Assembly (NCBI GenBank): GCA_022376515.1
Contig: WTXI01000020.1
Location: forward strand, 186,001 to 250,000
Length of the DNA stretch: 64,000 nucleotides
Reading direction: 5' to 3'
From: Lactifluus volemus
Lineage: Eukaryota > Basidiomycota > Agaricomycetes > Russulales > Russulaceae
The notes under the pieces are model-generated. The model had not been told where the DNA came from. It ran no database searches and saw nothing but the letters and a program-made list of their open reading frames with translations. The position numbers and the translations under genes were made by a program. Below, piece by piece: positions 8,263 to 60,470 of this stretch. Positions within the stretch are counted from its first letter, which is position 1, and every line of letters begins with the position of its first letter.

Positions 8263-9948
8263 ATGGCTACACCCAATGAACCCCCGCCTGCGTTTGGCCA
8301 TCAGATGCGACAATATTTCAGCTTTGAGGAAAATTACGTGAATCTCAACACTGGTCAGACCTTCTCCCCTATCGTAGTCTGGCCTAATTCATACTTTATC
8401 AGGTTCCTATGGCTCCGTGCCAATCCCCGTTTCCTCTGCCACCGAAAATACTTTTAGGTCCATGGAGAGGAATATCGACAGATTTCTCAGATTGCGTCTT
8501 TCTGAGCACCTCAATCTTGCCAGACACCGCATGGCCAGATTCGTCGGTGCTGGACCCGAGGAACTTGTATTTGTGCCAAATGCCTCTCACGGCCTCAACA
8601 CCGTCCTCAGGAATCTCGTGTGGAACAAGGATGATATCATCATTATAGGTAGGAGGTAGCCTCCGGAAAACTGAAAACTGACTACCTACCTTTACTTTTG
8701 CCCTTACCCCGCAGCAACTACAACGTATCTCCCTATAGAACGGGCGCGCAATATATCAGCGATTTACCGCCCCACCCTTCAATCTCTACATTTGAGCTCA
8801 ACTTTCCGACTACTCGCGCATCTGTCTTGCAGAACTTCCGTGTGCATGTCGATGCATTGAATGCCAAGTTGCAGGCTACTCAGAGCCAAATCAGCAATGG
8901 ACCGAAGTTGAAGATCGTTGCCATTATTGATAGCATCAGCTCCAGACCAGGAGCTTACCTTCCATGGAAAGAGATGGTTGCCATTTGTCGTGAAGGGGTG
9001 TTTTGACTGTCATAGACGCCGCCCACAGTGTTGGGCAAGAGCCCGACATCAACCTGAGCGAAGCCAATCCGGACTTTTGGGTATCCGTAGGGCCGATCAA
9101 CAGCTCATTGTATGGATGTGCTGAATTGTGCACTCACAGAATTGTCACAAATGGCTCTTTGCCAAGCGAGCTTGTGCTATCCTTTACGTACCGGAAAGGT
9201 TCGCTTCGGCGGGGGAACTAATGAACTTTCATCTTATTGTAACTCGCAGAAACCAACACTTGATACGAGACACCTTCCCAACTTCCCATGCCTATGTATC
9301 TCCTAAGGACTTCCAAAGAACCACGGGAAATCTCTTTTATAGAGATGTTTGAATGCGAGTGCTCGTGCACATGCCCATATGTGTGGCGAGCTCAATAATT
9401 GTTGTAGGGACGGGAACCGCGGACTACTCAGGATTTCTGAGCATTCATCATGGTATGATTTCAATTTGACAAGCTCGTGGAAACATATTAACCAATGGAA
9501 TTGGCAGCCCTGACTTCCGTCAGTGGCTTGGAGGCGAAGAAAAAATAAGTCGTTATTGTCGCTCACTCGCGCTCTCTGGCGGTAGACTGCTCTCTCAGCT
9601 ACTCGGAACCCAACTACTAGACCCTACCGGGGAGTTCACGCTCAACATGGTCAACGTTGGACTCCCCCTTGCACCGAATACCCAGACAACGCCATTACAC
9701 ATGGGCTTCTTCTGCACAACTTGTTGGAGGTTTGGCGGGTGTCTGCCCTAATATTCCGACACGACGATAGGTGGTGGGTGAGGGTAAGCGCGCAGATTTG
9801 GAATGAGGTGAATTCTCAAGACTGCTAATAGCTGGAGTTCGGCTCATCGATTCTAGATCTCTGACTTTGATACCTCGCAAAGGCGCTACAAGATTCGTGT
9901 AAGAAGTTGGAGCTGAAGCATCGCAGGATGGACTCTGTAAAGTTGTAG
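8263..9948 (+). CDS. Class V PLP-dependent aminotransferase-fold enzyme (Egt2/isopenicillin-N epimerase-like)
   Basis: PLP enzyme of the NifS/class V fold. Fungal members of this shape are annotated as isopenicillin-N epimerase-like or as hercynylcysteine sulfoxide lyase (Egt2). The sequence alone cannot choose the substrate. Start [19 protein letters not shown], then YVNLNTG joined to SYGSVPIPV, an [15 protein letters not shown] region, [32 protein letters not shown], the Schiff-base Lys in [44 protein letters not shown], and [10 protein letters not shown]. The end is [12 protein letters not shown] plus a last exon. About seven short introns. The frame slips by one base near 9708 and again near 9875. 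Read without the second slip the protein would stop at 9916. The family-like ending [10 protein letters not shown] needs the slip and stops at 9948. Confidence 0.82.
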
Positions 9949-32013: not shown

Positions 32014-34429
32014 TCACCGAAATGAATCGATATGTGAGTGTGCAAAGGCAAGCAAATTAAAGGGTAATAATAGATCAACACAAAATCCCGTAGAAAGTGA
32101 GAAGGCAAGTGAAACAACGGCGAGCATGGCCATCACACTGTGTGGCCTGATGGTGCTGCCGCCCGAATTGTATCCTGGTGGCCGCCCAAGTATCACGGTC
32201 GAAATAGGCAGTGGGCTTACTGTAGTACGAACGACGCCGCTCGCATCGGTGAGGATAAGAGTCGCGAGCGTAGGTGTCGGCGTCACTCCTGGAAGAGATG
32301 TCACAACCAACTTTTGTGACACGCCGTTGGCGACTTGCTCGATTAGGGGTGAATAGGTCGACGTCGCAAGATCAGTGGCAACGACAACGGAGATCGGTAC
32401 GGAAGTATTGAATATGTATAAAGGGGTTGTCGGAGACGGCGTTGGTACGATATAATTAGGCAGATTGGTTGCAACAGTGTCTGATTGGGAGGAGAAAAAT
32501 GCAGAGAGTGACGCAGGTGAGAGAGGTACCGCCCCTTGTCGGAGCGAGTAAAGGCCGATAAAGGGAGGCTCCTTGTAGTCAATGCCGTAGCTAATTTCTT
32601 ACATGAGAAAATGTTGTGCAGCAACAAAACTGGCGTATCACACCTGAACACAGAGTACACCGTCTGCATGAAAGCAGAACCTATCTGCCAGTCGATGCCA
32701 TCTGAACTTGGAGGCGAAGCTTTGGGCCATGTCAAGCACAACTCGGGTACGCTACTAGTGGGCCCGATCATGTAGTCGGATGGAAGGAGCGTGTAAGCGT
32801 TCGCACTACAACGGGGCAGGTTACAACCACGGTCAAAAAAGAGAGATTTGGTGACTCACCTGAAAGTGAAGGTCATGGTCAAGTTAGTGTTGCAGGGGAT
32901 TGCCCATTGTCCGGCTAAGGTAGACGTAAGGCTCAAAGTGGTCAACAAAAGATGAAGGGACACACTGTTATCCACTAGGCGGCTACCGTCGATGGCGTTA
33001 AATATTCGTTCAACCTGAAAGGAAGAATCAATCAATACTCTTAGGGGAATCACAGACACTGTTGCTTACGTCTTGATAGGGACCAAAGATCCCATTAGTG
33101 CCCCTGCGACCAAGAACTAGCTAAGCACAAAAACAAGAAGGCAAATAAAATGACTCACAAATCAAATAACGCCACAGAGCGATCGCCATTTGCTTGAGGA
33201 TATGTGGGCTCGAGTTTGAAGGTCTTTGTCCCTACCTGCGAACTGCAGCGTGAGCCTGATCAGAAAAGGCTTTGCCGAGGCACTGACTGTGATAGTCGAG
33301 ATGGGGATGGCCCATTCCAGGTAGCTAGATGCAGCAATCTCAGAGCCAAATGGCTCAAATGGAATGACCTCGTTCCATTCAATAAGGGCAACATCACTGA
33401 CAACCGTCGAGTCGATAGCACCTACGGAAAACACAATCAAAAATCAAGTTCGGGTGAGGGTGGACAGAGAGAAGCCGATCTCACCAAGCGAAAGGGAACC
33501 AGCCGATGAATTGCGCTGTAACCTCACGGCAAAAAAGGATAATCCAGCACGCCTTGTTGGGCCAACTTTGCAAAAAAGGGCGGCGGCGCTGTTTAGACCC
33601 GATCGTCAGAAGTCATGGGGTTGCAAATAGCCGACGAGTAAACGTACAGCCAGCTACGAGCCCACGGATCCTGGAAAGGCGGGAGAAACCAAGGCCGAGG
33701 ATGCCACTGACTTGATCAACAAAAGAAACGTTGGTGTAGTTCATCAGACCTGTGGGAAAAAAAGGCATGAGAGGAAGCGACGGTCAAAAGGAGGTACCAC
33801 GAACCGAAAGCCTGTCCGTATGAAGTGAAACCCGCGAGGTTCATGGCCTCCTGGGCGACAAAGCCCGATGCAACTAGAAAAGAAGTTTGAGCGACTGTTA
33901 AAAAGCCAGATTTGAATAATAGATAACGTACCGGTGGTATCGACAAAGCTGACGTTGAACACCGTCTGATTCTGATTGACAGAGACGAACGTCGGACTGT
34001 CGTAGTTCAAAAGATACTTGGGCAGATTCTTGCATTGAGCGGTGTTGCAAGCCGAGGAGACGACCCAAGTGTCTGAAGAGGCCGTGTCGCAGGCAACACG
34101 AAGACTGATATTTCCGAGAGAGATGACGGAATAGTACGTCCTGCAAGCATGAAGAAAAAAAAAAACCCCCTTTGATGAGTGCACGGGGTGCGGGAAGTGG
34201 AAGGACTGCCTCACTGTTTGTCACTCGCGAGTATCAACGGGACGATGCCCGCGCTGGTGTTGCTAGCCGGGTTGGTAACGTTTTGAGTTGTCTGTCGCCT
34301 GAGAATGCTGCGAAGCGAGGAAGTGAGGAGCCGAGGGGTACGAATTTGGTGGTGACCTGAGAGTGCGCGTGCCCAAGCTCCATGCAGCAGGGCAGGGAGA
34401 CAAAGGAGAAGGAAGAGGGAAGAGAACAT
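32014..34429 (-). CDS. Secreted or membrane-tethered pepsin-like aspartic protease (A1 family), altered active-site motifs
   Basis: Signal peptide MFSSLFLLLCLPALLHGAWA, a propeptide with SILRRQTTQN, then the pepsin fold: YYSVISLGNISLRVACDTAS with the first catalytic Asp in DTASSDTWVVSS, CKNLPKYLLNYDSPTFV, NYTNVSFVDQVSGILGLGF, and IDSTVVSDVALIEWN. The second motif SVALFDLGTNGIFGPYQDVE is split by an intron inside DL. Later come QWAIPCNTNLTMTF and DWQIGSAFMQTVYSVF. Usual A1 motifs are DTG and DTG/DSG. Here they read DTA and DLG, so both aspartates remain but neighbouring residues differ. A Ser/Thr/Pro-rich stalk and a hydrophobic segment (VMAMLAVVSLAFSL) near the end suggest surface tethering. 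More than ten introns. Activity is uncertain. Confidence 0.82.
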
Positions 34430-34780
34430 GGTGAGGGAGACAAGGCGGCTATTGGGTAAGATCCATAGAGGTTAGAGGTTGACAAGGGACTACACTGGTT
34501 TAGCTTGCTTGCGCACGGCACGGCAAGGCCCCCGTACCTAGTCCGACTCGGTCTCCGACCGGGCTCTCCGCTTGCTTAGCTCCGTATGAATGATACAGTA
34601 CTGTAAATAGGCAATTTGGTCCCCTCAGTCAGGCCCCCGCAGCCAGCACGCAGCCGCAGTGTACATGAGTTCTTTCCGCAGTTGATCTCGATGGGCTATA
34701 TAGTACTCCCGTCAATCTCCCCACATCTCCCCATTCCTTTATCTCCTCATTTCTTTCTCCCTCCCTTCTCCCTCCGTTAT

Positions 34781-34806
34781 CAACAACTCGTTGACTCGAG
34801 TTGTTG
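34781..34806 (+). repeat. Inverted repeat, 10-bp stem, 6-base loop
   Basis: CAACAACTCG, loop TTGACT, CGAGTTGTTG: a perfect 10-bp stem. It immediately follows a long pyrimidine tract. Confidence 0.9.
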
Positions 34807-34851
34807 GTATCCTCCCACTCCGCCTTCCTTCCTCCTTCCTCCTCCTATCCG

Positions 34852-34871
34852 CAATTCGTTGAGTCGAATTG
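34852..34871 (+). repeat. Inverted repeat, 7-bp stem, 6-base loop
   Basis: CAATTCG, loop TTGAGT, CGAATTG. Loop and stem-top (TCG-TTGAxT-CGA) match the hairpin at 34781-34806 apart from one base. The two look like diverged copies, while the outer stem bases changed in a compensated way. Confidence 0.85.
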
Positions 34872-35091
34872 TCGGTTCCGCCTCTCCACCCTCCCTATGC
34901 ACCGCGATTCGGGGTACTCCCTCCGAAGAGTTCGGCTAGGTTCGTGGGTCTCCGCCATTCCCATCCAATTATGAATCATTGCCGTGCACTCGTCAGTCTG
35001 GAGATCCCTTCTCTACATCCTTCCATTGCCTGACTCTTTCTTCCCTTATCTTTGCAGGCGCGGTGTCTTTTTTTTTATGACTTCGGAAAAT

Positions 35092-35139
35092 CCAACGAAT
35101 CTCGTTGGTCTGCATTGAGTTGCAGTCTCCGAATGGAGA
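35092..35139 (+). repeat. Three adjacent short hairpins
   Basis: CCAACGA-ATC-TCGTTGG (35092-35108), CTGCA-TTGAGT-TGCAG (35110-35125) and TCTCC-GAAT-GGAGA (35126-35139) follow one another with 0-1 bases between them. All stems are perfect. The middle one shares the TTGAGT loop of the hairpin at 34852. Confidence 0.85.
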
Positions 35140-35149
35140 AATACGTTAT

Positions 35150-35195
35150 GGAGAGTTTGGTCACGTCTTTGCAAAAAGACGTGACCAAACTCTCC
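35150..35195 (+). repeat. Perfect 21-bp stem with GCAA tetraloop
   Basis: Bases 35150-35170 are the exact reverse complement of 35175-35195, with no mismatch, and enclose GCAA at 35171-35174. In RNA on the + strand this loop is a GNRA tetraloop, a very stable cap. The left arm begins GGAGAGTTTGG and ends CGTCTTT. The strand assignment is a reading preference, not proven. Confidence 0.95.
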
Positions 35196-35196
35196 T

Positions 35197-35275
35197 GGCT
35201 CCCGAGCTCGGGAGCCGAGGCGTGATCACGCCGCCGCGAATGACGCGGAGTTTATATCTCGCGCCTTGCGCGAGA
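35197..35275 (+). repeat. Cluster of two perfect palindromes and two hairpins
   Basis: In order: a perfect 20-bp palindrome at 35197-35216 (GGCTCCCGAG and its complement, no loop), a perfect 14-bp palindrome at 35219-35232 (GGCGTGATCACGCC), CCGCG-AATGA-CGCGG at 35234-35248, and TCTCGCGC-CTT-GCGCGAGA at 35257-35275. The gaps between them are 2, 1 and 8 bases. Confidence 0.92.
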
Positions 35276-35566
35276 AGCAAATCAATTACCCCAGGCCATT
35301 CTCGTTGTAACCGCAGTAGCACAAGGACTCAACTTGGTGCGGAATTTGCCCCTTGATAGTTACTGCATCATGTACAGCGCCACGATACCAGTCGATTGAC
35401 AATACCAGACAAGTGTCGTGTTAAATTGCGTGTGTTCAACTTGGCGAGGATTCGGAAAACGAAAGCCGACGTTGACCGACCACTCATTCACCTGACTTGC
35501 TCTGAGTTGCAATAAATGATACACGATGTCCAAAGTACATGGAAAAAGTAATGCAGGAGATATAGT

Positions 35567-38562
35567 TCATGCCTGCCGTAACGAACGTTAAGCAATTCTG
35601 CCGTTGGAAATAATGGGGTCTGACTTGCCAGATAGTTATATGATTTACGATCCTCACACCGCTCGAGATATTCTCTCTGATAACCCCGCCATGAGCCAAA
35701 ACGGACGAACGACCAAAAAAATAAATTTGCAAGCGCACCTCAATCACCGCTTCAATCCGCTTTTTGATATTCAATGGGTTGGGCAAGAAACGCGATGAGA
35801 GTTGTCGGGTAGCCTCGTTGACCAGATCGTTATGGGTCATATGTTTACGACTCTTCATGATCCGCACGATGCATGCCTTTTTTTAAAAAAAATGCAACGC
35901 AATCAAAAAAACTCGGTCCCAGTAAAGAGATCTGAAATTAATACACGCACGTCCGTCTGAAAACGTCGCTCTTCCTCGACGCGGTCCTGTGTCTCCCTGC
36001 GCTCGTCGCCACTCTCGATGCGCGCTGCGACTGTGCTGATCTTGATCTTCTGCAAAGGGGACGAGAAATCCGCGTTGAACGAGAACGCGTCGTCCACGTT
36101 GACGTCCCGTCCCGGTGGGTGTTTTTTGAGCACCTTGTATTTTGTACACGCGAGAGATTGTAAGTTGCGTTGCAACTCGCCGTCCGGGATTTTCGTTGCG
36201 CTCTTAATTTCCTCGTACGTGAGGAACTCTCCCTCCTCAATATCCTCGAAGAGCAGGAGAATGACCAGCGCAAACGATGACACGTTAAGGTCGTGTTTGC
36301 GTGCTTTGAATGTGACGCGCAAGTCCGCATTCCCCAGGGACGGTTGCCATGTAAGCTTTCGCCCAGAATGCCGCGAGAGGTAGAACTGCTCGAACAACTT
36401 GCTCGCCTTGACAAGCAGCGGCGGGAGTGTGCACGGTACGGGCACGTAGGACATGGGCCAGAATGTAGATGTCATTACGACAACATTGAGGTCAACTTCA
36501 GGGGCCTACATACTCGATGCATCAACTAAAACTGGGGCAAGACGAAAGGAGTAAAACTTACAGTTGTTTTGCCTACGTGATCGCGGTAGGCCTGCGTAGC
36601 GTCCGCAGATAGCTTCATATCGTGGAACATGCCCTCTAGTTTTACCGTGAATTGGAACCCGCACTCGACCTTGAGCTTGGTGAGCATGCCACGTTCTGCA
36701 TCATCGGAGATAGATCGATTGAGAAGAAGGCGCTTCGCAAGGTGAGCCTTATAATATCGTTCAAAGACATCCTTTTCTGTAATAAACCTGAAGAGGGTTA
36801 TGGTTTTATCGAGGACTGCCTCGACTTCGGCATCCGTTTTCTAGATATGGTTGTGAGATGATGCGGACATAACAGATCGTACAGCGCACCCCTTTCAACC
36901 CTTTCTTCAAATTCTCGTCGATATACAGTGATATGAACTCAGAAGCCCGCGGATGCAGGTTAATAAACGACTCGAAAGCCTAGAATACGTCAGTCTTCAT
37001 TAATAACAATAAGCTAATAGTGTCAATGACCTCGTTAAGTCCGCTCTCAATCTCACGGTTATTCTTGAACGACAACTCCCAGACGTGATCGAACTTATCT
37101 TTCAGTTGCATCACATCCTCGACCCATCGGAGAGCCGGTGCGAGACTATGTACGCCAGCATTGGGTGATCGGGCTTTCGCCTTGCCTTTACCCTTAGCGG
37201 CCGGGTCCGGTTCATCTTCAGCACCTCCATCGTCGGCCCCTCGACCCTCCATGCTGATTTCGTTGAGTTCAGTACCTCGCTTTTGTATTGAGGCCTTGAG
37301 GGAACGACGTAGGGAAGGTACCCCTTCAGGGACCAACGAATACAGCTGATACAGGCGGGAAAGGCCGTCAACCTTCTCAAGATCGATCATGGCATTCAAG
37401 CCCGAGCTGGCCATGTCAATGAGTGTTTGCAAGTGTGGCGTGAGGAGAGTATCCTGGAGGATAGCCTGGAGAGGGGCAGAAGTTTGTAACGATAGATATT
37501 GGTGAGCGCGTGATTCCTCTTCGGAGAAGCGTGTTTGAACCTAGCGGCCCAGCATCGAGGTAAGCAAGACCAAGAACTGCAACAAGAAGAGACGGATATT
37601 TCACCCTGCGTAGATACTCCAGAGCATCACAAGTCTCCAGTAGCCTCGCAGCTTCGGCTTTGTAGTACACGTCACTCTGACGCAGGATTTCGGGTTCCAG
37701 ATATTGCTTATACACCGACGCACCCTCTGGGTTGTCGCTTAGTAGCAACAGTGCCTCCACACAATTCGTAATGGCAGATCGGTTAATCACATATCCGTCG
37801 CGTTCGATATGCAAGAGACTCAAGACAGTACTGATGACGTAATCCTTTATTGGAGGATGAATGATGTGCCTTACGAAGAGATCGCGACCTAGCTCGACAA
37901 CCTCGAGAGCATTGGCAGATTTCACATATACGCGGTCCTAAGGAGAACATACGCTCGGAGATCGAAGTAGGGAGAGGGCACTGCTAGTGGAGACACATAC
38001 CATGTACTTGAGAATATGACTTAACTTGTCCATACAATCTGTATGATCGACCCATACTTTATGCACGGCTTTCAAGAGCCTCTCCCCTTCTTGACTCTGT
38101 TGCATTGGGTCTTGCTCAAGTCCGGAAGGGAAGCAGGCAGGATAATTTCCTCCGCAAGGCGATTGAGGTTCTCGACGACCAGATCGCTGACGCCATCGTA
38201 GAGCATCCGGCCCTGCTTACTCACTACCAGTTGATACCAGCCGGTAGCATTCTTCAAAGGAGAGTTTGTGAGCGTTGTGGTGCTGAATTTCCCGAATGTT
38301 CAAGGTAAGCTTCGCCCACGACTCGTCAACGGCGATATTGGGACCAAGCTGATTGAAACATGTTGAGTAAGACGGAGATGAACAAATTCAACAAGTCCGC
38401 AGACCTTTCGTGGTGGCCTCTGCGGATGGCAAGGCGTCAGTAAGATTGCGGTCCGTAGTGAAGGAGGCTACGCACGATCTTCGGTTTGATCTTCTTGGAG
38501 GCTTAAGAAAATAATTAGGGAATGAGGTCGTCGAATGAATATATATACGTACTCGAGGCCAT
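35567..38562 (-). CDS. CUL3: Cullin-3, scaffold of a BTB-type ubiquitin ligase
   Basis: Scaffold binding BTB adaptors at its N-terminus and Rbx1/E2 at its C-terminus. The first exon is 10 bp (38562-38553, ATG GCC TCG A) and joins the exon at 38501-38476 to read [12 protein letters not shown]. Then come [20 protein letters not shown] and LSFEECYR, the Cul3-like N-helix, and [20 protein letters not shown]. The cullin repeats include [20 protein letters not shown] and [20 protein letters not shown]. The cullin-homology domain contains [17 protein letters not shown] (about 36470), [20 protein letters not shown] and [20 protein letters not shown]. The neddylation region is IVRIMKSRK (about 35870), followed by RRIEA-type KKRIEAVIE and [17 protein letters not shown]. 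The last intron (35628-35573) has a GC donor and leaves only GCA TGA in the final exon, restoring the classical YLA end. Confidence 0.92.
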
Positions 38563-49177: not shown

Positions 49178-50804
49178 ATGGTTTCAAACACATTCTTTAC
49201 TGCGGCCGTTGTGCTGGCCACGGCGAGCCAAGCCTTTGCTCACATCTGTAGGACCTTTGCCAAGTGAGTTGTATATCGGCCGACGCTGACATCTATATTC
49301 TAGCCTTATTCACCCCAGCCATGTATGGTTTTAACCACTCCAATATTGACGGAACCGTCCTTTAGATCCGATGATGAATAGGATTTCAAAGAATGGTGGT
49401 TCGTGAGTATCGGTCCACGTTCAAGATACATGTCTTATTAGCATCCTGATTCTTGCGCAGCACATCTTATGGATGAACCCCCTCATCCGATGACATCTTT
49501 CAGCTACCTGTCGGGCAAACCGTTACGACGGAGCTGGCTTGCACCAGGGGTGCCACATCCTACTCGGAAGGCATTCCCGGAGGTGACATTCGAGATCCCA
49601 ACGATCTCAATAATCCGTGTCCCCGCTCACATCTGTACGCGTTTCATACTAACGGGTTAAACGACCTCGGCGGGTGCGCGTTGGCCGTGGCATACAAATC
49701 AAACGCTTCCGATGTCAAGCCGGAGGACTTTACCGTATTCAGCGTGAACCAGACCTGCGTATATTATCGGTTTACCGACTTCCAAATCCCAGCGCAGATG
49801 CCCAAATGTCCGAATGGGATGTGCATTTGTGCGTGGTTCTGGATACACCTCGCGGATTCGGGCTCCGAACAGAGTTGGTTCCATCTATCTATCCTTTTTT
49901 TTGGGATGGGATCTAGTTTTACTGACCGATGGGTAGACTATATGACGCCCTTCCAGTGCAACATGCAAGGCGCCACGTCGACCACGCCGCTACCTCCTGC
50001 CCAGGTTCCGCGTCGGTGCGTGACCAAGGATTTTTTTCTTGTCTGCACGAATATTTATTTCATCACGGACAACATTAGTTGTGGCATAGACATACTTCTC
50101 GACCGCCCTGCTGATCCCAGCAATTGCACGTACGGTGCCAAACAACCCTTTTATTGGTTTCAAGCTGAGAGAAACAACATGAATGAGGGCACGTACACCC
50201 CTCCGCACTACAAGGATTTGTACAACTTCCGCGACGGCGCCCAAAATGACATCTTTGACCCTGCTTATTATAACAACAGTCAGTTTCGAAACGTTTTTTT
50301 TTGAGCGTCATTTGCCACCCCTCAACTTACTTATTTATGCCTTAATTAGCTCTTCCGCACTACAACATTTCGACAGACACCAGAATCATTCCTGCCCCGT
50401 CGCCCTTCTGATGAAAACGTTTTCCGGGAGCGAGTCTTTGAATAATAACAACACCAACACCAACAGTAGTAGCGTCGAGAAGAATAACGCTAAGCCCGCC
50501 GGCGGCGACACGGCATCACCTCCGCCGAGTCGAGGACGAAACTGTGCTGGTGATCACGGCCAAAAACAACAATACCACAAGGGGACCACCGGCAAGCACG
50601 GGTTGGAACCATCTCTCCTCCATCCATTTATCAACTCGAAACCTGACCCTGTTTTTCTTTTTTCGCAGATCGAGTTCTAAGCACGTGGCTCACGGGACTC
50701 ACCATCATGGCCACGCGAAGCAGCGCCACGAGGAGAAGGAACGGTCCTCGCCTCTATGGGGCGGCCGTAAGATACCACACGCTGAGGCTAAGCGAAACCC
50801 TTGA
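49178..50804 (+). CDS. Secreted AA14-like protein (lytic polysaccharide monooxygenase type), frame break present
   Basis: The signal peptide MVSNTFFTAAVVLATASQAFA would be cleaved before His, giving the N-terminal histidine (HIS then LFTPAMYGFN across an intron) expected for the copper 'histidine brace' of LPMOs. Later parts match what I recall of AA14, a copper oxidase family linked to wood xylan: EWWF, HLMDEPPHP, DDIFQLPVGQTVTTELACTR, GATSYSEGIPGGDIRD, GGCALAVAYKSNASDVKPED, FTVFSVNQTCVYYRFTDFQI, PAQMPKCPNGMCICAWFWIH, QNYMTPFQC-type core, NCTYGAKQPFYWFQAERNNM and KDLYNFRDGAQNDIF. The tail is Asn/Ser/His-rich. The frame slips by one base near 49488 between PHP and DDIF, and may slip again near 50400. 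This could be a pseudogene or missing bases in the assembly. The family name is from memory. Confidence 0.75.
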
Positions 50805-60382: not shown

Positions 60383-60470
60383 CCTTCGATAGCTCAGTTG
60401 GAAGAGCGTGGGACTGTAACGGTTAACTTCTGACATCCCGAGGTCGCTGGTTCGAACCCGGCTCGAAGGA
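60383..60470 (+). tRNA. tRNA-Tyr (anticodon GTA) with 15-base intron
   Basis: Acceptor stem CCTTCGA (60383-60389) pairs with TCGAAGG (60463-60469), discriminator A. D stem GCTC/GAGC, anticodon stem TGGGA/TCCCG, loop CTGTAAA with anticodon GTA at 60416-60418. The intron is 60420-60434, directly after position 37, the canonical place. T arm GCTGG-TTCGAAC-CCGGC. C1-G72 is the eukaryotic cytosolic tRNA-Tyr identity pair. Mature length is 73 bases before CCA. Confidence 0.97.

Follow-up and report, generated by a model that had tools for sequence, protein, structure and literature searches.

The window, by which we mean the whole stretch of 64,000 nucleotides of the Lactifluus volemus genome that was analysed (C113:186001-250000), carries a row of perfect hairpins between a cullin gene (Pfam Cullin, minus strand) and an aspartyl protease gene (minus strand, 33744-34220 and upstream). 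By our reading, cullin-like coding extends to about 35.74 kb and an exon-like piece to about 35.64 kb, which puts a few hundred bases between the cullin gene and the row. Among the matches listed for the one protein searched (120 of 437), those with a name come from mushroom-type fungi, at best with 58% identity, in agreement with an agaricomycete. Elsewhere in the window are an AA14-type lytic polysaccharide monooxygenase gene (Pfam LPMO_AA14) at 49477-50304 on the plus strand, and an 88-base tRNA at 60383-60470 (plus strand) that Rfam recognised and ARAGORN, run with bacterial settings, did not report, perhaps owing to an intron. The features of the locus are as follows, with the strand where one was assigned.

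34599..36141: host segment (insert apart), cullin 3' coding end and downstream DNA; also on contigs C153, C335, C592, C112 and C534
34711..34778, plus: pyrimidine tract, after a TATA-like CTATATAG at 34696-34703; common to the other copies
34781..34806: older hairpin, common to the other copies; partly broken in C153, C335 and C592
34852..34871: older hairpin, a diverged repeat of the 34781 hairpin; one pair is T-A in the window, T-G in four other aligned copies
34923..34935: small hairpin; of the six copies, only that of the window has it
35092..35108: hairpin formed from the target site and the first insert base; its inner 6 bp are present in the unoccupied C153 and C534 sites
35100..35107: target duplication, left copy TCTCGTTG, 8 bp; in the unoccupied target it holds a small hairpin's 3' arm
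35108..35299: insert, 192 bp, seven different perfect hairpins; absent from 5/5 other segment copies
35108..35116, minus: other insert end; its 9 bp also lie beside the end motif at C113:145328
35110..35125: hairpin, 5-bp stem, 6-nt loop
35126..35139: hairpin, 5-bp stem, 4-nt loop
35150..35195: hairpin, 21-bp perfect stem, 4-nt loop
35197..35216: palindrome/hairpin, 20 bp, perfect
35219..35232: palindrome/hairpin, 14 bp, perfect
35234..35248: hairpin, 5-bp stem, 5-nt loop
35257..35275: hairpin, 8-bp stem, 3-nt loop
35278..35299, minus: insert end motif; its 20-mer recurs with 1-2 mismatches at C113:144553, 145038 and 145328 and on the duplicate contig C255
35300..35307: target duplication, right copy TCTCGTTG, 8 bp

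Density and folding of the hairpins

An earlier reading of this DNA from its letters (the sequence-only reading) had listed 11 inverted repeats, all of which are present, and between 34701 and 35300 there are 11 non-overlapping perfect hairpins (stem of at least 5, loop of 3-8). That reading also described a pyrimidine tract ahead of the array on the plus strand, and the tract is indeed there. The claim of a density beyond chance was borne out from 35092 on, where values lie far above those of shuffled sequence. In 2000 dinucleotide shuffles of the 192-bp insert, stem base pairs numbered 5.0 on average and never more than 23, where the insert itself has 57. When 142 kb of genome was shuffled 60 times, the highest counts within 200 bp were 23-36, compared with 64 here. 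This background was made up of the window and 16 loci from the genome, overlapping or near-identical loci being left out, and the array was removed from it before shuffling. Folding both strands against shuffled sequence, a check proposed in the sequence-only reading, gave the insert z-scores of -10.7 (plus) and -10.1 (minus), with 0/200 shuffles as good on each strand. The left part (34781-35100) is much weaker: it scored 22, where 500 shuffles averaged 5.8 and reached 25 at most, and 34600-35100 folded with a z-score of -1.95, matched by 3 of 100 shuffles. The significance thus comes largely from 35108-35299, and the array has to be divided: genuine as the hairpins are, they fall into a dense insert and, to its left, a sparser set with another origin. 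The idea of a single array with one function is not supported.

A genome-wide tendency to form perfect hairpins was considered and dropped, as their frequency in the 142 kb is about that expected: the ratio of observed to expected is 0.8-1.2 for stems of 5-8 bp, 9-bp stems were seen 0 times against 1.4 expected, and stems of 10 bp or more twice against 1.0. Two further places were taken up as candidate arrays and rejected. On the reverse strand of locus L049 (contig C82, reverse-complement positions 1789-1922), five perfect hairpins lie directly behind a copy of the ~270-bp repeat described below; their density score of 36 was also the highest reached among 60 shuffled data sets, and their fold (z -1.02) is no better than that of shuffles. 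Within the window itself, seven perfect hairpins of 5-6 bp occupy 228 bp at 9330-9557; the score of 31 for 9326-9557 was reached by 8 of 60 shuffled sets and the fold z-score was -0.87, values that chance can produce.

The statement that no coding frame accounts for the array needs a qualification. One of the six frames, 35081-35356 on the plus strand, is open across the whole insert (91 codons from stop to stop), but there is no sign of coding: at least one open frame is also found in 57% of 3000 insert shuffles, and the frame gave no Pfam match. Closure of the insert through pairing of its ends was not upheld, as shuffles reach the same pairing (5.4-12.7% of them on the plus strand with ends of 18-26 nt, 54-62% on the minus strand), and the 22-nt end-pairing value is reached by 43% of random 192-bp pieces of the window. 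No inverted repeat of at least 12 nt joins the two ends of the insert; the arms in the hairpin row measure 5-21 nt.

Unoccupied copies and the age of the insertion

The sequences on either side of the insert (34700-35060 and 35300-36300) each have five further copies in the assembly, on C153, C335, C592, C112 and C534, and the segment ends are common to all copies. All five aligned copies run straight across the place of the window's 192 extra bases, and each unoccupied site has the octamer TCTCGTTG once, exact in C153 and C534 (2/5) and altered in C335, C592 and C112 (3/5). The dense part is therefore missing from every other copy of the segment, which does not favor its conservation. Five insert-free copies and an exact 8-bp repeat at the ends argue for a real event rather than an assembly error, and the flanking repeat together with the absence from five segment copies indicates that the 192 bp entered the locus as one insertion. 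The opposite course, in which the copies' ancestor cleanly lost the insert along with one octamer, is less likely.

These results should be interpreted with some caution in regard to the number of independent observations. C153, C335 and C592 are ~99% alike over 10 kb, so that the five copies amount to three distinct loci. Moreover, a single captured ancestor probably gave rise to all five empty copies; they are consequently not independent of one another, and one inheritance may account for the empty site. In the 0.8-kb right part, divergence is 4.2-5.4% between the window copy and the others, and 0.4-4.5% among the others. The age of the insert would thus be bounded by a split of ~5% divergence if entry followed that split, as the 8-bp repeat suggests, and in that case perfect pairing would be expected without selection.

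The history of the host segment itself appears to involve another repeat. Elsewhere in the genome the segment 34599-36141, without the insert, is joined to a ~270-bp repeat, and it stops at the same cullin-coding position in the copies, within a few bases, where the letters resemble the 3' end of that repeat. The repeat, seen for instance at L021:5289-5556 (C112), starts TCCAAGTACTATAAAATTAC, ends near CACTTGTA and has at least 40 genome matches, the cullin-bearing copies included. The cullin 3' end seems to have reached other contigs by travelling with this repeat; a mobile element might have used the look-alike end in the cullin gene, carrying the gene's tail along.

The sparse hairpins at 34781-34935 belong to the host segment and would be unrelated to the insert. 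Covariation, a further check named in the sequence-only reading, found no support in the two older hairpins: in five aligned copies, 0/20 pairs of the 34781 and 34852 hairpins have changed on both sides, and 4 of 99 cells are broken. Five of the six copies were used for this count, C534 being left out for a deletion that fuses both older hairpins; at L022:4982-5044 on that contig the 5' arm of one is joined to the 3' arm of the other. The same locus holds a tandem array of ~130-bp units (L022:1912-3787; ~72-79% identity in self-matches).

Copies of the insert and of its ends

A search of the 62.4-Mb, 628-contig assembly turned up one full copy of the insert and no other; this search skips very common words and could miss a diverged copy. 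A genome search with 35085-35285 matched only itself and its own inverted repeat. The many scattered identical copies by which the sequence-only reading would have recognised simple debris of miniature elements are therefore not seen, one full copy being found.

The ends of the insert gave a different picture. The right-end 20-mer occurs with two mismatches or fewer at three sites on C113, ~76 kb away, and in their three C255 duplicates; three more matches have 3 mismatches, and a reversed control pattern gave 0. When one mismatch was allowed, the right-end 16-mer was found at eight places, namely the window, the six C113/C255 sites and an exact match at C556:966228, the last already counted among the 20-mer matches with 3 mismatches. 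This place we take to be an intron of a small GTPase gene, and the match may for that reason be chance. On C113 the ~20-bp motif shared with the insert end stands three times in one orientation within 0.8 kb (144553-145347). At C113:145328 the 9-mer of the insert's left end lies beside it, where a 9-mer of that end is expected in 0.2% of random 60-nt stretches (three sites were examined); the other two sites have at most 7 and 5 bases of that end. Two of the C113 motif sites, when folded, were no better than shuffles (z -0.59 and -0.23), and a family of hairpin arrays is not shown by them. With 3 mismatches, the left end has seven matches elsewhere (control 2) and the long arm three (control 0). 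Taken together, the ends of the insert resemble those of a unit that has relatives, but the assembly yielded no kin of the hairpin cargo. A stretch of the C113 locus L185 (1192-1249) has six further dispersed matches of 47-54 bp (87-91%).

Outside the assembly, the insert had no plasmid match; a phage match of 27 nt (E 0.2) was taken as chance, an 18-mer matched one viral contig, and a 16-mer had at least 120 matches in prokaryote genomes, about the chance number by our reckoning. In literature searches limited to open-licence papers we recognised no comparable hairpin array in a fungal nuclear genome.

Origin of the insert

We tentatively favor the explanation that a small non-autonomous mobile unit entered the locus through a staggered cut of 8 bp, while granting this somewhat less than an even chance of being right. 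Three observations support it: the empty site in 5/5 copies, the recurring right-end motif, and the left-end 9-mer at C113:145328. According to this explanation an integrating enzyme would make the 8-bp staggered cut, the ends of the unit would be the ~20-bp motif on the right and the 9-bp end on the left, and the hairpins would be either interior cargo or a requirement for moving as a folded single strand. Transposons of the hAT and Zisupton (KDZ) groups usually produce an 8-bp duplication, according to the portion consulted of PMC12730594. Non-autonomous, MITE-like derivatives of these fungal elements share with the insert the 8-bp target duplication, small size, discrete ends and no sign of coding. 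The insert differs from them in having no clear terminal inverted repeat and many unrelated hairpins inside, and where they have several genome copies only its end motif recurs. The lack of a clear terminal repeat, the single full copy found, the two C113 sites that fold no better than shuffles and the probable common descent of the empty copies all count against a mobile unit. Debris of foldback or mobile elements, one of the options in the sequence-only reading, comes nearest to our result in that there is an insertion with an 8-bp target duplication; the long terminal inverted repeats that form the bulk of a foldback element are, however, replaced here by a row of hairpins with arms of 5-21 nt.

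Next in our order of likelihood, and in our judgment an improbable though serious rival, is that a chromosome break with staggered ends captured a piece of DNA rich in GC hairpins, from the mitochondrion or another extrachromosomal source, fill-in of the overhangs giving the 8-bp repeat. Such a source would agree with the failure to find a parent copy of the insert in the assembly, where mitochondrial DNA seems to be missing (0 COX1 matches, the exons being searched one by one), and with the composition of the insert, whose hairpins are 60% GC, its spacers 35% (48 bases only) and the flanks 49%. Optional GC palindromes and putatively mobile hairpin elements occur in fungal mitochondrial genomes, including a basidiomycete one, as far as the sections consulted of PMC10234125, PMC7218506 and PMC2800124 describe them. 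The double-hairpin elements and GC clusters of fungal mitochondria resemble the insert in their GC-rich perfect hairpins, short loops, apparently more AT-rich spacers and optional presence; the insert departs from them in its nuclear contig, its seven different hairpins in place of one or two repeated, and its 8-bp target duplication. In the part of its description that we consulted, the Heterobasidion palindrome is one 13-bp motif repeated many times, unlike the seven hairpins of the insert, which all differ. The end motif at three nuclear C113 sites also speaks against capture.

We give slightly less credence to a repair patch, in which a break with 8-nt overhangs was filled by a polymerase that copied the end motif from elsewhere and then folded back repeatedly on its own product, so that no parent element would exist. 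The hairpins are perfect and mutually unrelated, with 2 of 67 pairs of the folded insert being G-T, and the missing parent copy is as expected. Precedents exist in yeast, where fold-back inverted insertions at breaks are documented (PMC11724301, in the part consulted), and in template switching, which can produce perfect hairpins (PMC8794818, likewise in part). Insertions of both kinds resemble ours in being perfect inverted repeats without a known parent copy, but ours is longer, repeated about seven times, and has a long arm without a flank match. The yeast fold-backs copy break-adjacent sequence and most are under 14 bp, as far as the same part of PMC11724301 goes, whereas the 21-nt arm of the insert matches the flanks over 10 nt at most, and a full flank match exists for four of the seven arms (5-7 nt), as chance predicts. 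Seven rounds would be required, and perfect hairpins show no general excess in the 142 kb of genome.

A functional structured RNA gene or a cluster of protein-binding palindromes under selection is highly unlikely, for all the strong fold on both strands and the TATA-like site and pyrimidine tract upstream on the plus strand: the empty-site comparison and the pair count led us to drop the conserved RNA gene, and Rfam reached its gathering score only for the tRNA in the whole window, with 7 sub-threshold matches in 34600-35400, so that the earlier statement that no described family has this layout holds for curated RNA families.

A bolder form of the mobile-unit explanation may be stated as speculation, which we think doubtful: that the insert is the first member to be recognised of a kind of eukaryotic mobile unit in which short fixed ends enclose a row of unrelated perfect hairpins, and which duplicates 8 bp of its target on integrating, perhaps in the form of a folded single strand. 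If this were true, the ~33 bp at C113:145326-145358 would be the same hairpin-carrying unit without its hairpin cargo.

In conclusion, a dense and well-bounded row of perfect hairpins that arrives in one step separates hairpins gained by insertion from hairpins kept by selection. Strong folding z-scores in fungal intergenic DNA call for a check of empty sites before a structured RNA is claimed. The source of the insert, if found, would reveal a new small mobile unit, a transfer of hairpin DNA from organelle to nucleus, or a repair process that writes hairpins.
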